DNA of 64,000 nt from assembly GCA_028719205.1 (NCBI GenBank), contig JAQUKH010000003.1:39603-103602 (forward strand). The letters run 5' to 3'. The position numbers and the translations under genes are program-made. The first letter of the stretch is position 1, and every line of letters starts with the position of its first letter. This DNA is from a bacterium (GTDB lineage Bacteria; JACRDZ01; JAQUKH01). Below, one piece after another: positions 1,200 through 14,299 of the stretch. The notes under the pieces were generated by a model. It was not told the origin of the DNA, searched no databases, and saw only the letters and a list, made by a program, of their open reading frames with translations.

Positions 1200-3269
1200 C
1201 TATTTAATTGAATTCAGTAATTTTCTTGCAGGTTCAGCATCAGGAAAGTTTGGAGATATGTCTAACGCGGCCTTTAATTCTTTTTGAGCTTCAGCAGTTT
1301 TCCCTAATTTAGAATACGTCATTCCCAAATGGTAACGAATACTTGGATTCTTAGGCATTTGTTCTACCGACTTTTTAAAAACATTTAAAGCCTCTTCATA
1401 ATTGCCTTTTTGAAAATAAACAAAACCCAAAGTATCAAGAATTGCGCCTTGTTTTGGAGATATTATAATGGCTTTTAACGCGTATTCCAAGGCTTTATCA
1501 AGATTTTTATTTTCTTTAGCGTAAAGATAAGCCAGATTATTATATGGTACCGGAGAAGGTTGTTTTACTTTTTCTGTTAGCTTTATAGTCTCTTCGTATT
1601 CTTTAATCGCCAGATCGTTCTTGTTTTGTATCTCATAGATAGTGGCCAGCGCGAAATGAAATTGCGGGAATTTAGGCTCAACAGCAATTCCTTTGTTGAA
1701 ATAATTAACAGCATTTTCAACATCTTTTTTCCTCATATATAGATTAGCTATAGTCTGATAAGCCGGCAGATATTTTTCATTAATTTTTATAACTTCCTCG
1801 ATTTTTTTAATAGCCAGATCATATTTTTCCTGCATTTCATATATTGAAGCAAGATTCATTCTGGCTGAAATGCTTTTTGGATTAGTTTTAATGGCATTTT
1901 CTAAACTTGACGAGGCTTGCGGAAAATCTTTTTTATTAAGTGACGCAAGGCTGATCATTGTCTGGGCAACTAAATTATTTGGGTCAACCGCAATAGCTTT
2001 TCTAGCGATTCTAATAGATTCATCATTTAAGCCTTTTCTTAAATAGAGGGAAGAAAGCGTAAGTATTGAATAAATAGATTTAGGATTTTCCTCAACCTTT
2101 TTCTTAAATTCATCAAGAACAATATCCACATTCCCTTTTGCAAGATAAGCGTTTAAAAGCAGGTTTTGAGCCTGCACATCTTCGGGCTTTTTTTCCAATA
2201 TTTTATGTCCTTCCAAAAGCGCCTGATCATATAATTCCTTTTTTATGAATAACATTCCTATGCTATAGTGCGCCCCGGAATGGTCGGGATCGATTTTTAT
2301 AGCTTCCTTAAATTCGTTCATTGCCTGTTCTTCCTGTCCTGCTCCCTGCAGGGCAATTCCAAGTACATAATGAGCTTCAGCAGAAGGGGATATTTCAATT
2401 ATTTTCCATATATATTCAGTGGCTTCTTTATATTTCATTTGATAAATTAATCCCATTGCTATTGCTTGATATATAGCAGGATTATTTGGATAGATTCCTA
2501 ATAGTGCTTTTCCTTGAGCAATGGCCTGGTCATATTTGCCTGTTTTATTATAAATATCAGCTAACATCAGGTTTGCTGGTAAGTAACTGGGATTCTTTTT
2601 TAATGCGATTTTAAATTCAATCAGCGCATTGTCAATGTCTTTTTGCGCAAGGAATAATTCTCCTTTAACTGTATGGACGGCCGAGTTGTCAGGCGACATT
2701 TTTAAGGCTTTGTTAACTTCTTCTTTAGCTTTTTCAATATTATTTATCTGCTGGTACATCTCAGCCAGGATCAAATAAGGTGTTACGGAATCAGGGGCGA
2801 TAGTTTTAGCTTTTTCAAGTAATTTGATGGATTCGTCATATTTTTTCTGGACTATATAAATGTTGGCAATAAGGCTGAACGCAGGTATGTTTGCAGGTTC
2901 TATTTTTAATATTTCTTCACACGCTTTTATACTTTCATCAAAATTTCTTTCAAAAAAATATAAACCCGCTATTGCCAGCCTGGCATCTGTGAGTTTTGGA
3001 TTTAATTTAACTGTTTCCTTAAATTCTTCTATAGCAAGTTTGTTTTGTCCCAGATCTTTGTATGTTAGCCCTAAATAATAATGAGCGTCCGCGAAACCGG
3101 GATCTAATTTGATGGCTTTCTTAAAAGATTCGACAGCTTCAGGTGTTTTTCCGCTTTTAATATAAAGCATACCCTGATCAAGAGCATTTTCTTTTTTAGA
3201 TGATAACCCGCATCCTGAAACAAGAAAACACACAAATATAATTCCTGAAATAATCTTATTTTTCGGCAT
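1200..3269 (-). CDS. TPR-repeat lipoprotein
   Basis: A 689-residue protein with a lipoprotein signal peptide (lipobox VSGC, lipidated Cys at about residue 20). Some eighteen to nineteen tetratricopeptide repeats of 34 residues follow, recognisable by repeated A-x-x-x-Y/F-x-L-G-x-x-Y, F-K-x-A-I and P-x-x patterns (for example near residues 60-95, 300-335 and 610-680). TPR solenoids are protein-protein scaffolds. In PEP-CTERM organisms, long TPR lipoproteins (the PrsT-like family) often accompany exosortase and exopolysaccharide genes, which fits the two PEP-CTERM proteins next door, but that link is inference. The gene converges with the PEP-CTERM gene and stands alone. No catalytic domain is visible. 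Confidence 0.85.
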   Translation of the reverse strand: MPKNKIISGIIFVCFLVSGCGLSSKKENALDQGMLYIKSGKTPEAVESFKKAIKLDPGFADAHYYLGLTYKDLGQNKLAIEEFKETVKLNPKLTDARLAIAGLYFFERNFDESIKACEEILKIEPANIPAFSLIANIYIVQKKYDESIKLLEKAKTIAPDSVTPYLILAEMYQQINNIEKAKEEVNKALKMSPDNSAVHTVKGELFLAQKDIDNALIEFKIALKKNPSYLPANLMLADIYNKTGKYDQAIAQGKALLGIYPNNPAIYQAIAMGLIYQMKYKEATEYIWKIIEISPSAEAHYVLGIALQGAGQEEQAMNEFKEAIKIDPDHSGAHYSIGMLFIKKELYDQALLEGHKILEKKPEDVQAQNLLLNAYLAKGNVDIVLDEFKKKVEENPKSIYSILTLSSLYLRKGLNDESIRIARKAIAVDPNNLVAQTMISLASLNKKDFPQASSSLENAIKTNPKSISARMNLASIYEMQEKYDLAIKKIEEVIKINEKYLPAYQTIANLYMRKKDVENAVNYFNKGIAVEPKFPQFHFALATIYEIQNKNDLAIKEYEETIKLTEKVKQPSPVPYNNLAYLYAKENKNLDKALEYALKAIIISPKQGAILDTLGFVYFQKGNYEEALNVFKKSVEQMPKNPSIRYHLGMTYSKLGKTAEAQKELKAALDISPNFPDAEPARKLLNSIK

Positions 3270-3661
3270 AATTTTAATTAATAATATCAGTTTTTATTTT
3301 AAAAGTAAAGAATATTTTTGTTTGTACCGAAATAATGCGTTATAGATGAGGTTGTTGTGTTTTTGTTTATTTTATTTAATAAGTTATTGACTTAATATTT
3401 TATTTAATTTATAATATACATATTCATATTTTTAATGAAGAAATATGTTTATATATAGATGGTTAGTAGGTACATTCGATTAAAAAATTTATCATATATT
3501 TGATATTTTCTTTCTATAAAAATATGATAAATGTTAAATTCAGTAATCGGTTTTTATATACTTGGTCTTTATTTGTTTAAGTTTGTTCTTATCGAATTTC
3601 CTGTCTAATCATCATTTCATAACTTCATAATCATCAAATATTTACTGTCATTTTCATATTT
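3270..3661. other. 392-bp AT-rich divergent intergenic region
   Basis: No gene is seen. The region separates the TPR lipoprotein gene from rny. It holds a consensus plus-strand promoter (listed separately), which leaves a leader of roughly 260 nt before rny, and an 11-bp perfect inverted repeat within that leader (ATTTATCATAT at 3487-3497 and ATATGATAAAT at 3522-3532). A long leader before rny could be a site of autoregulation by RNase Y, but no known riboswitch is recognisable. Confidence 0.6.
3387..3415 (+). promoter_or_regulatory. sigma70-type promoter for the rny operon
   Basis: TTGACT (3387-3392), a 17-bp spacer and TATAAT (3410-3415). Transcription would start near 3422, about 260 nt before the rny start codon. 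Confidence 0.7.
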
Positions 3662-11035: not shown

Positions 11036-11046
11036 TAAGATAATAT

Positions 11047-11137
11047 GAACTCCTCCCAGCCTCCTCTTTAAAAAAAAGAGGAGGAGTAAGAGTATTGTTT
11101 TCCCCTCTTTTTTTAAAGAGGGGATCAAGGGGAGTTC
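11047..11137. repeat. bipartite palindromic element
   Basis: Two hairpins lie in tandem, CCTCCTCTTT/AAAGAGGAGG (11060-11084) and CCCCTCTTT/AAAGAGGGG (11102-11123), framed by an outer inverted pair GAACTCCTC (11047-11055) and GGGGAGTTC (11129-11137). The layout resembles a BIME-like mobile repeat. There is no T-run, so it is not a standard terminator. Confidence 0.7.
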
Positions 11138-11160
11138 GGATTAATATAGCAGGAGAACAA

Positions 11161-11610
11161 ATGATAAGAAAAGCTTATGTTCATGAAATAAAAGAGATAT
11201 ATAAGATCATCCAGAAAAATTCTGAAGCCGGAAAACTTTTGCCAAGGTCCTATAACCAGCTTTATGAAAATATCAGGGATTTTTTTGTATTTGAAAAAGA
11301 TAAAAGTATAATCGGGATATGCGCCCTGCATATCAGCTGGGAAAATCTGGCTGAGATAAAGTCCCTGGCGGTATTGGAATCCGAAAGAAAAAACGGTATC
11401 GGCACTGAATTATTAAAAGCCTGCTTAAAAGAAGCCCGTGATCTGGGGATAAAACAGGTTTTTACGTTGACTTATGTAGTGGAATTTTTTGAGAAAAACG
11501 GTTTTAAACAGGTAGAAAAAAACAGTTTGCCGCATAAGATCTGGAGTGAATGTGTCAATTGCGTGCATTTTCCGGATTGTGATGAAATTGCGTTAATGAT
11601 CGATCTATAG
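11161..11610 (+). CDS. GNAT N-acetyltransferase, short ArgA-like
   Basis: A 149-residue GCN5-related acetyltransferase. It matches the short, stand-alone N-acetylglutamate synthase-like family: IRKAYVHEIKEIYKII at the start, the acetyl-CoA loop SERKNGIGTELLK (about 75-88), and the hallmark tail LPHKIWSECVNCVHFPDCDE. The likely reaction is acetylation of glutamate, the first step of arginine synthesis, but no arg gene is nearby, so the substrate is inferred from family only. The ATG at 11161 follows AGGAG with good spacing. A longer in-frame TTG start at 11095 would translate the palindromic element and was rejected. Confidence 0.8.
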   Translation: MIRKAYVHEIKEIYKIIQKNSEAGKLLPRSYNQLYENIRDFFVFEKDKSIIGICALHISWENLAEIKSLAVLESERKNGIGTELLKACLKEARDLGIKQVFTLTYVVEFFEKNGFKQVEKNSLPHKIWSECVNCVHFPDCDEIALMIDL

Positions 11611-11627
11611 AAAGAGGAGCTGCAATA

Positions 11628-13706
11628 ATGAAAAAAATTTATTTATTAATTTTAATTATGTGTTTGTTGACAACCAGAGGTTTTGCGGAAGAAACCGCGA
11701 TAACCGCAAGTATGCCTTCTGAGGAGATCGGAGATGCGCTATCGGCTAAAGCTCAAAGCACTGCCGAGAAGATCAAGCAGATCATTTCGGAACGGGGGAA
11801 AGACCTTCTGATACTGTCGAAAGGTATAACTTCTTTCGGGCAGGCGGGCAGGCAGGAATGGGCGAAGGGGATCGTAAGTTTTTCCAAGGAATTTAAGGAT
11901 TATTCATTAATAAGGATAATAAATACCAGAGGCGTTGAGGAAATGAAAGTGGCTTACGGCAGGGAAATAAAATCAGGATACGCGGATGTAAGCTCCGATG
12001 AATTTTTTAAGGAATGTATTAAATTAAATAAGGATCAGATCTCTGTTTCTTCCCTGGAATTTAATTCTGAAGGTGTTGTGGTCCTTCGGATGTCTACCCC
12101 AATCTATGGCTTATCCGGTATGGAAAAGGCGATCTTGAGTTTTGACTGGGATATCAGCGAGATAACCGAATTAATAAAAAAACTTAAAGTTTCCGATGCA
12201 AGTTATGGTTTTATTATTAATCCCGAAGGCAAAATATTAGTACATCCTGAAAAGAGTAAAATGTTAAAGGAAAAACTTGAAACGGATATAAATCCCGAAT
12301 ACAAGGCTATAGCTCAGAGGATGCAGTTAGGGGAGAGCGGCTGGGGGAAATATAATTTACAGGATAAGGAATATATCATTGGTTTCTATTTTTATCCTGA
12401 ATTGGACTGGTCTGTAGGTATTTCTTATCTTCGCGGGGATAAAGTTGCTGATGCCGGGGAGGCACAGGCAAATATCTCTCCTTCGGTTTCCGTTCAGGCA
12501 ACGGAACCTGTTAAACAGATTACTCAGGAGTTAAAGCCTGTTCAGGCGGTTGTTCCGGTTGTTCTTGCTCAATCTGAGGCCTTGCCGTTATCCGCGCTTT
12601 CATTAAAAATATTAAAGGGTTCACTGAGATCCAGAAATATAGAGAACTTTAAGGCTAATATAAAAATAGAAGGTAAAATATCCCCTGAATTAACGAACAC
12701 AATAATTCTTAAGCTGCAGGGTGTGCATTCTAACCCATCAGAGCATTTACTTGCCTTGTGGAAAATAAATGAGAATTCATATAAACAATTCCGCTGGGAG
12801 ATAACAAGCCCGGATCTGATGGCAGAAGTAAGGGTTTTGAACGAAAACGAGTCATTTATTTATTATCCCTTAGAAAAGAAATTAATGATGTTTAATAAAG
12901 AAGATTTTATCGAATATTTTAAAATAAATTCAGGAAAAGAGAATAAAATGTTATTGCCCCTGCAGTCAATAGATATCGAAAATTATTGTAATGATAAAAT
13001 TGATATGCAGACAGAGAACGACAAGATGTTTTATGTACTTGAGATGGATATGAAAACTCCTTTGGAATATTTTGGAGTTTCTTTAAAACGGGTTAAAATG
13101 AAGATCGGTAATGAATATTTTCTGCCGGTTTTAATAGAGTGGTATACAGGTGAAAAGGAAAAAATAGTTTCCGCCAGTATGGAAGATTATAATATTAACA
13201 CGGATTCATCTATGGATTTTTCCTATTTGCCGAAACCGGATGATAATATTGTGAAATATCAGGATGTTAAGGCGCAATTACTAAAAGAAGCGGGATTATC
13301 AGTTGAACCGAAAAAAGAGAATGAAGTACAATTGAATTCTTCAACAGTTAAAGGGCTTTTGCAGGAAGAAATAAAAAAACGCGGGTTAATAACGGCTAGA
13401 ATTTTAGCTTCAGGAAGCAATAATTTTATTTTAAATAAAAATATAGAAGAATTGAAAAACGTATTGTTAAGTGTCTGGAGCGAGGATTGGGTTGATTATA
13501 TCGCTATTTTAGACAATGAAGGGAAAAAAGTCATTCAGACAGGCGTAAAAGAATCTTTAAAAAATGATGAGGTAACTGTAAGATATCAAAGAGAGGAATT
13601 ATCGGTTCCTGTTATTTATCAGGGCAGGCCGGTTGGTTCTGTAAAAATTGGAGTTAATCTGGAAAAAGCGGATTATATTTTAAAAGAATTTCTAAAAGGT
13701 AAGTAA
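11628..13706 (+). CDS. exported Cache / LolA-like / Cache protein
   Basis: A 692-residue secreted or periplasmic protein of unusual build. A signal peptide (1-21, ending GFAEE) is followed by a Cache-type ligand-binding domain (about 25-285; KAQSTAEKIKQIISERGKDL helix, then GFIINPEGKILVHPEKSKML and ELDWSVGISYL, typical of the membrane-distal part of dCache sensors). A Pro/Val/Gln linker (about 288-325) leads to a domain resembling LolA/outer-membrane lipoprotein-sorting proteins (about 330-545; LKLQGVHSNPSEHLL, SFIYYPLEKKLMMFNKEDF). A last, smaller Cache-like segment covers about 560-692 (AILDNEGKKVIQTG...GSVKIGV). No membrane helix, HAMP, kinase or methyl-accepting region is present. A response regulator follows under its own promoter. 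I do not recognise a named family. Confidence 0.7.
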   Translation: MKKIYLLILIMCLLTTRGFAEETAITASMPSEEIGDALSAKAQSTAEKIKQIISERGKDLLILSKGITSFGQAGRQEWAKGIVSFSKEFKDYSLIRIINTRGVEEMKVAYGREIKSGYADVSSDEFFKECIKLNKDQISVSSLEFNSEGVVVLRMSTPIYGLSGMEKAILSFDWDISEITELIKKLKVSDASYGFIINPEGKILVHPEKSKMLKEKLETDINPEYKAIAQRMQLGESGWGKYNLQDKEYIIGFYFYPELDWSVGISYLRGDKVADAGEAQANISPSVSVQATEPVKQITQELKPVQAVVPVVLAQSEALPLSALSLKILKGSLRSRNIENFKANIKIEGKISPELTNTIILKLQGVHSNPSEHLLALWKINENSYKQFRWEITSPDLMAEVRVLNENESFIYYPLEKKLMMFNKEDFIEYFKINSGKENKMLLPLQSIDIENYCNDKIDMQTENDKMFYVLEMDMKTPLEYFGVSLKRVKMKIGNEYFLPVLIEWYTGEKEKIVSASMEDYNINTDSSMDFSYLPKPDDNIVKYQDVKAQLLKEAGLSVEPKKENEVQLNSSTVKGLLQEEIKKRGLITARILASGSNNFILNKNIEELKNVLLSVWSEDWVDYIAILDNEGKKVIQTGVKESLKNDEVTVRYQREELSVPVIYQGRPVGSVKIGVNLEKADYILKEFLKGK

Positions 13707-13823: not shown

Positions 13824-13851
13824 TTGACAATTCTATAAATTGGTTTATAAT
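13824..13851 (+). promoter_or_regulatory. sigma70-type promoter for the response regulator
   Basis: TTGACA (13824-13829), a 16-bp spacer and TATAAT (13846-13851). Start near 13858, about 43 nt before the ATG at 13901. Confidence 0.8.
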
Positions 13852-13900: not shown

Positions 13901-14299
13901 ATGAAAAATTTAAATAAGAAAAAAATACTTATTGCTGACGATGAAAAAGATATTCGCACTTTAGTCTCCCAGATTTTAGGTGAAGAAAATTATAAGATTT
14001 ATTTCGCAAAGAATGGCCGTGAGGCTATAGATGCCGCGAATGAGAATATGCCTGATTTACTGATACTTGATCTTATGATGCCTGAGATTGACGGTATTGA
14101 GGTCTGTAAGTGTTTGAAGCAAAATAAAAACACGAAAAAGATACCGATCATCATGTTGACCGCGAAAACCGGTGTCGCTGATAAAATTGAAGGTTTTGTT
14201 ACAGGTGCTGATGAATATATTACAAAACCTTTTGATCCCTTAAAACTCGAAATTGCTGTTGAAAAGGTTCTTCGCCGGGCTGAAAAAGATAACCGCTAA
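13901..14299 (+). CDS. single-domain response regulator (receiver only)
   Basis: A CheY-like receiver domain of 132 residues without an output domain. Phospho-acceptor Asp is at about 57 in LILDLMMPEIDG; the acidic pair is in ADDEKD near the start; Thr and Lys switch residues are in MLTAKTG and YITKPFDPLKL. The sequence is close to the PleD/CheY-like receivers that work as phosphate shuttles or protein-interaction switches. The promoter just upstream makes it independent of the Cache protein. No histidine kinase is in the window, so the partner is unknown. There is no clear Shine-Dalgarno before the ATG. Confidence 0.93.
   Translation: MKNLNKKKILIADDEKDIRTLVSQILGEENYKIYFAKNGREAIDAANENMPDLLILDLMMPEIDGIEVCKCLKQNKNTKKIPIIMLTAKTGVADKIEGFVTGADEYITKPFDPLKLEIAVEKVLRRAEKDNR

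Follow-up and report, generated by a model that had tools for sequence, protein, structure and literature searches.

An exported Cache-LolA-Cache protein without a membrane anchor, conserved in Candidatus Desantisbacteria

The window, by which we mean the whole stretch of 64,000 nucleotides analysed here, comes from a member of the phylum labelled Candidatus Desantisbacteria, to our knowledge known only from metagenomes. An intact open reading frame at 11628-13706 on the forward strand encodes a protein of 692 amino acids, with an AGGAG sequence at 11615-11619 immediately 5' of its ATG. The gene and its surroundings comprise the following features.

11161-11610, forward strand: upstream neighbour, a GNAT acetyltransferase of the PRK07757 type (NCBIfam, 213 bits)
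11628-11687, forward strand: signal peptide, residues 1-20, MKKIYLLILIMCLLTTRGFA, read by eye
11718-12434, forward strand: dCache_1 domain, residues 31-269 (Pfam, AlphaFold2, Foldseek)
12435-12578, forward strand: fast evolving low-complexity linker, residues 270-317 (orthologue identity, pLDDT)
12579-13307, forward strand: predicted LolA/RseB-superfamily domain, residues 318-560 (hhalign; Foldseek on a low-confidence model)
13329-13703, forward strand: C-terminal sCache_3-type single Cache, residues 568-692 (hhalign, pLDDT, Foldseek)
13824-13851, forward strand: TTGACA-N16-TATAAT, matching a sigma-70-type promoter, in the interval from the Cache gene to the receiver gene
13901-14299, forward strand: receiver-only response regulator (Pfam Response_reg, 107 bits)

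Between a tlyA-like gene and the GNAT gene, at 11036-11160 of the window, lie short inverted repeats such as cctcctctttaaaaaaaagaggagg, which may form a small repeated element.

The signal peptide was judged by eye; it is N-terminal and constitutes the sole hydrophobic stretch both here and in three relatives, and signal peptidase I would probably cut after A20. Outside it, no segment of 19 residues reaches a Kyte-Doolittle value of at least 1.6, either in this protein or in the mature parts of the three relatives. Pfam detects no output domain, and the protein is without a HAMP, PAS, kinase or HD-GYP part. In a Cache receptor, transmembrane helices flank the sensor, which is connected to an output domain; this arrangement is absent here. 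The hydropathy scan and the Pfam search thus bear out the initial annotation, which had described a signal peptide with no transmembrane helix and with no HAMP, kinase or cyclase. The signal peptide may also be retained uncleaved and serve as an anchor.

Judged by sequence match and predicted structure, the N-terminal Cache is a complete dCache. The Pfam dCache_1 family matches residues 111-266 with 64.1 bits, above its curated cut-off of 45, the AlphaFold2 model of residues 31-269 (pLDDT about 80) consists of a long helix at 31-70 and two PAS-like lobes, and Foldseek relates it to chemoreceptor dCache domains with E about 1e-9. A PDB sequence search agrees with Foldseek in matching the domain to the dCache sensor domains of chemoreceptors and kinases, and the first Cache region, as originally proposed from the sequence, is confirmed by the Pfam score, the model and the structural matches together. 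In every pair of orthologues the dCache is the most conserved domain. The amino-acid-binding motif of dCache_1 amino-acid sensors includes R-x-W-Y. This stretch, present in the canonical in-phylum receptor L009, is absent from the dCache described here, which has DVSSDEFF where L009 has DPRDRNWY, and because it is missing an amino acid is not favoured as the ligand. The linker that follows shows 8-32% identity among orthologues, the lowest of all mature parts, and a pLDDT of about 30.

The C-terminal domain (residues 568-692) was matched by hhalign to the sCache_3 profile of receptors at 99.2% (E 1.2e-19, 114 columns), with a score of 113.7 against at most 16.9 after column shuffling. Its Pfam scores of 19.8-25.8 bits lie under the curated cut-off of 28.4. 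The AlphaFold2 model of this domain has a pLDDT of about 83, and its Foldseek matches are the periplasmic domain of a LapD orthologue (TM-score by target 0.74) and WalK/YycG. A second Cache at the C-terminus, likewise proposed earlier, is therefore substantiated by hhalign over the whole domain and by Foldseek. Two receptors of the phylum, a histidine kinase (L010/L165) and an HD-GYP receptor (L002/L160), provide its top-ranked relatives in their periplasmic domains. The fusion protein ends at the point where sCache_3 receptors enter their second transmembrane helix. As a separate observation on these receptors, a gene for a PhnD-like substrate-binding lipoprotein lies directly before that of an sCache_3 receptor in two genera (L002 489-3132, with the HD-GYP receptor; L010 1-2855, with the histidine kinase), which suggests a binding-protein/receptor pair, and in the sister species a gene for a phosphate-binding-like periplasmic protein immediately precedes that of a dCache histidine kinase (L005 118-3182).

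The middle domain was compared by hhalign, as a profile of the four orthologues, with target profiles built from other genomes, and on this basis is assigned to the LolA/RseB superfamily: it matched LolA at 95.7%, LolA_like at 92.6% and an RseB-like profile at 87.8%. Against the same targets the dCache and C-terminal profiles reached at most 2.4% and the reversed profile 0.3%; the middle profile itself scored 52.9, and the best of its 100 column shuffles 31.7 (23.5%). Searched alone, the middle domain has no Pfam match at the curated cut-off and NCBIfam returned nothing usable; matches to DUF6921 and Pih1 below the cut-off were disregarded. When 386 genomes were searched with it, three standalone proteins were matched, two of them assigned to LolA_like by Pfam. 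The alignments behind the AlphaFold2 models, made from the window sequence and related loci, were shallow (three to four rows), and in neither of the two models is the middle domain modelled with confidence (pLDDT 30-60). For the second of these low-confidence models Foldseek places E. coli LolA first, and LolA-type carriers make up four of the five best matches, aligned locally and with poor global superposition. The LolA/LppX-like middle domain of the initial annotation therefore stands by the profile-profile comparison, with its near-zero controls, while the structure model supports it weakly and at low confidence. A single unrelated fold in place of the Cache and LolA-like folds is accordingly contradicted for both Caches, and for the middle domain by the profile and, weakly, by the model.

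Relatives were sought in two genomes at the family level, two at the class level and four at the phylum level in all, and the fusion gene is present in each of the four phylum genomes: the window's own, the sister species, L014 (genome G003) and L015 (genome G002). Identity to the window protein is 69% in the sister species and about 26-29% in the two other families; the L014 copy is full length, whereas that of L015 is split by a run of Ns, with the C-terminal Cache resuming past the gap. The order of signal peptide, Cache, LolA-like domain and Cache read from the window thus recurs in near and distant relatives alike, and its persistence in all four genomes, even at 26-29% identity, indicates that the protein is under selection as a unit. 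Outside the phylum the fusion was not found in 382 genomes, which gave single-domain matches only, and an alignment-based pattern scan of about 85,000 species, from which records near the window's genome were possibly omitted, returned only two members of the phylum. Because both searches are limited in sensitivity, the fusion can be described as confined to the phylum only as far as tested. A single-sequence scan of genome contigs gave no match, and a match on G000:C15 (L003), which spans ordinary housekeeping reading frames, was taken as chance. No relevant publication on exported, soluble Cache proteins turned up in a search of the literature. In a census of Cache proteins, transmembrane helices were present in 36 of the 40 readable loci (L051 and L038, which were not properly readable, were left out); the four anchor-free entries are three members of the Cache-LolA-Cache family and one exported protein of G002 (L008/L062). 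The latter (L008, 116-1387, reverse strand), a second exported Cache protein without an anchor, has a signal peptide, an unassigned region of about 150 residues at the N-terminus that looks CsgG/TolB-like by eye, and a terminal dCache of the DxSxxxYF subtype, as in the Cache-LolA-Cache protein. We conclude that the Cache-LolA-Cache protein is a real, conserved and new combination of known domains.

The surroundings of the gene are conserved only in part. The upstream GNAT gene is kept near it in all three phylum members in which the region is readable (the window, L004/L013 and L014), the contig of L015 ending upstream of the Cache gene. In L014 the GNAT gene, at 2991-3518, lies 1.3 kb upstream with a Kelch-like lipoprotein region in between; the Cache gene follows this region after 9 nt and precedes an O-antigen ligase/TPR gene by 3 nt. 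The Kelch-like exported lipoprotein region itself (L014 3644-4834) consists of two adjacent open reading frames, possibly through a frameshift or an assembly error. The downstream neighbour varies, being the receiver in the window and the sister species, the O-antigen ligase/TPR gene in L014 and a gene for a P-II-like protein in L015. No receptor gene lies beside the Cache gene in any of the four phylum genomes, and none of these neighbours (GNAT, receiver, O-antigen ligase/TPR, P-II-like) is an anti-sigma factor gene.

With a probability of about 0.5, the protein is an exported, soluble periplasmic sensor or adaptor that passes a signal in trans to a receptor or to another partner in the envelope. 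Of the readings considered this is the best one, and it corresponds to the role that the initial annotation proposed, a periplasmic ligand carrier or lipid/lipoprotein-sensing factor acting through another receptor. The handing of a signal to a partner protein is probable because the membrane helices and the signalling half of a receptor are lacking. In such a mechanism the protein would be soluble in the periplasm, where its dCache would bind a small ligand, its LolA-like half-barrel would hold a hydrophobic group (an acyl chain, a lipid or a lipoprotein) and its C-terminal sCache_3 would dock onto a membrane receptor of the phylum or another envelope partner; the signal would be handed on in trans, as in RseB/MucB with its LolA-like domain, without a transmembrane helix of its own. 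This sensor/adaptor reading draws on three folds that were each identified independently, on the lack of an anchor in every orthologue and on the constant domain order in the four genomes; the low confidence of the middle model and the absence of an adjoining receptor gene count against it. Suitable receptor partners exist, since the phylum's kinase and HD-GYP receptors have the periplasmic domains that the C-terminal domain matches best, and LolA itself was found in all four genomes, so that an outer-membrane lipoprotein route probably exists. A more specific and doubtful proposal is that a phylum-wide soluble Cache transducer joins ligand and lipid sensing and hands the result to a membrane receptor by pairing sCache_3 to sCache_3 in trans; if true, this would run counter to the literature, in which an extracellular Cache can signal only through its own transmembrane helix.

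The alternative that survives best, although we consider it unlikely, is a carrier of lipids or lipoproteins: its LolA-like part would move lipophilic cargo between envelope sites while the Caches gate loading or dock it to membrane partners, with no signalling involved. The relationship of the middle domain to the LolA superfamily, the lipoprotein carriers among its best Foldseek matches and the envelope setting in L014 all agree with such a role, but LolA and other LolA_like proteins are already present in each genome, the dCache and not the LolA-like part is best conserved, and almost every known Cache protein has the domain as a sensor (PMC4822843). It is less likely still that the protein is a soluble dCache binding protein that presents a small molecule to a receptor or transporter and uses its other domains for scaffolding or dimerisation. 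Its dCache is indeed complete and its most conserved domain, and Cache domains can serve dimerisation (PMC8694187); yet a simple binder would not need the LolA-like and sCache domains that are kept in order in all four genomes, and the R-x-W-Y of the in-phylum receptor is missing from the dCache. The initial annotation had also raised a link with the adjacent receiver-only regulator, and a two-component partnership, in which the exported protein would feed this receiver via a kinase encoded elsewhere, can be envisaged from the adjoining genes in the window and the sister species. We regard it as improbable: the promoter-like site between the two genes fits the consensus at 12 of 12 positions and occupies the corresponding position in the sister species, and thus occurs in both species of the genus, whereas the adjacency is seen within the genus only, the two other families having a different downstream gene. 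Because the site is conserved in both species, the receiver is probably transcribed on its own, as a separate transcription unit; the conserved linkage and shared transcription of an operon are not apparent from the sequence, and, while read-through from the Cache gene may occur, the receiver is probably an unrelated neighbour. Least credible is a broken receptor that has lost its signalling half and drifts without function, since the protein, although it stops where a second transmembrane helix would start, is intact in every phylum genome examined, with the same order at 26-69% identity, and carries a LolA-like domain that ordinary receptors do not have.

Among known systems, the receptors of the dCache_1 type (Tlp3, PctA/B/C, Mlp24 and dCache histidine kinases) share with the Cache-LolA-Cache protein a complete dCache_1, but not its lack of flanking transmembrane helices, HAMP and output domain. 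Similarly, its C-terminal domain matches the whole periplasmic domain of the phylum's sCache_3 receptors (HD-GYP in L002, histidine kinase in L010), from which it differs in having no transmembrane helices, HAMP, PAS, kinase or HD-GYP domain. The alpha2-delta proteins of calcium channels are eukaryotic and have other companion domains, and are not known to include a LolA-like domain. They too carry extracellular dCache_1 domains outside the classical bacterial receptor (PMC9901441). Extracellular Caches have otherwise been described as parts of membrane receptors that signal only via their own C-terminal transmembrane helix (PMC4822843). The present protein, with two Caches and a LolA-type domain, no anchor, and an intact and conserved gene, suggests that Cache sensors are detachable and can work as soluble periplasmic factors.

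LolA proper has a hydrophobic cavity that binds acyl chains, which are exchanged with LolCDE. The LolA and LolA_like carriers (PF03548, PF17131) are exported, as is the Cache-LolA-Cache protein, and its middle domain is related to them at 92.6-95.7%; unlike them it is fused between two Caches, and standalone LolA and LolA_like proteins are encoded in the same genome. MucB/RseB, the nearest working precedent, is a LolA-like, soluble sensor of lipids whose target is a membrane protein (PMC7400510), and the resemblance extends to soluble export, a LolA-like domain and the proposed sensing of a lipophilic signal toward a membrane partner. The two differ in that two Caches replace the C-terminal domain of RseB and no anti-sigma factor gene lies alongside; PF03888 (RseB) has no match in the protein's own genome, and membership of RseB/MucB is not claimed because the defining features were tested and are lacking. 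Most likely, the protein is RseB-like in its logic while being no RseB, a soluble periplasmic sensor or carrier that would act in trans by the mechanism we infer; if true, the sensing of small molecules would be tied in this phylum to the handling of lipids or lipoproteins.
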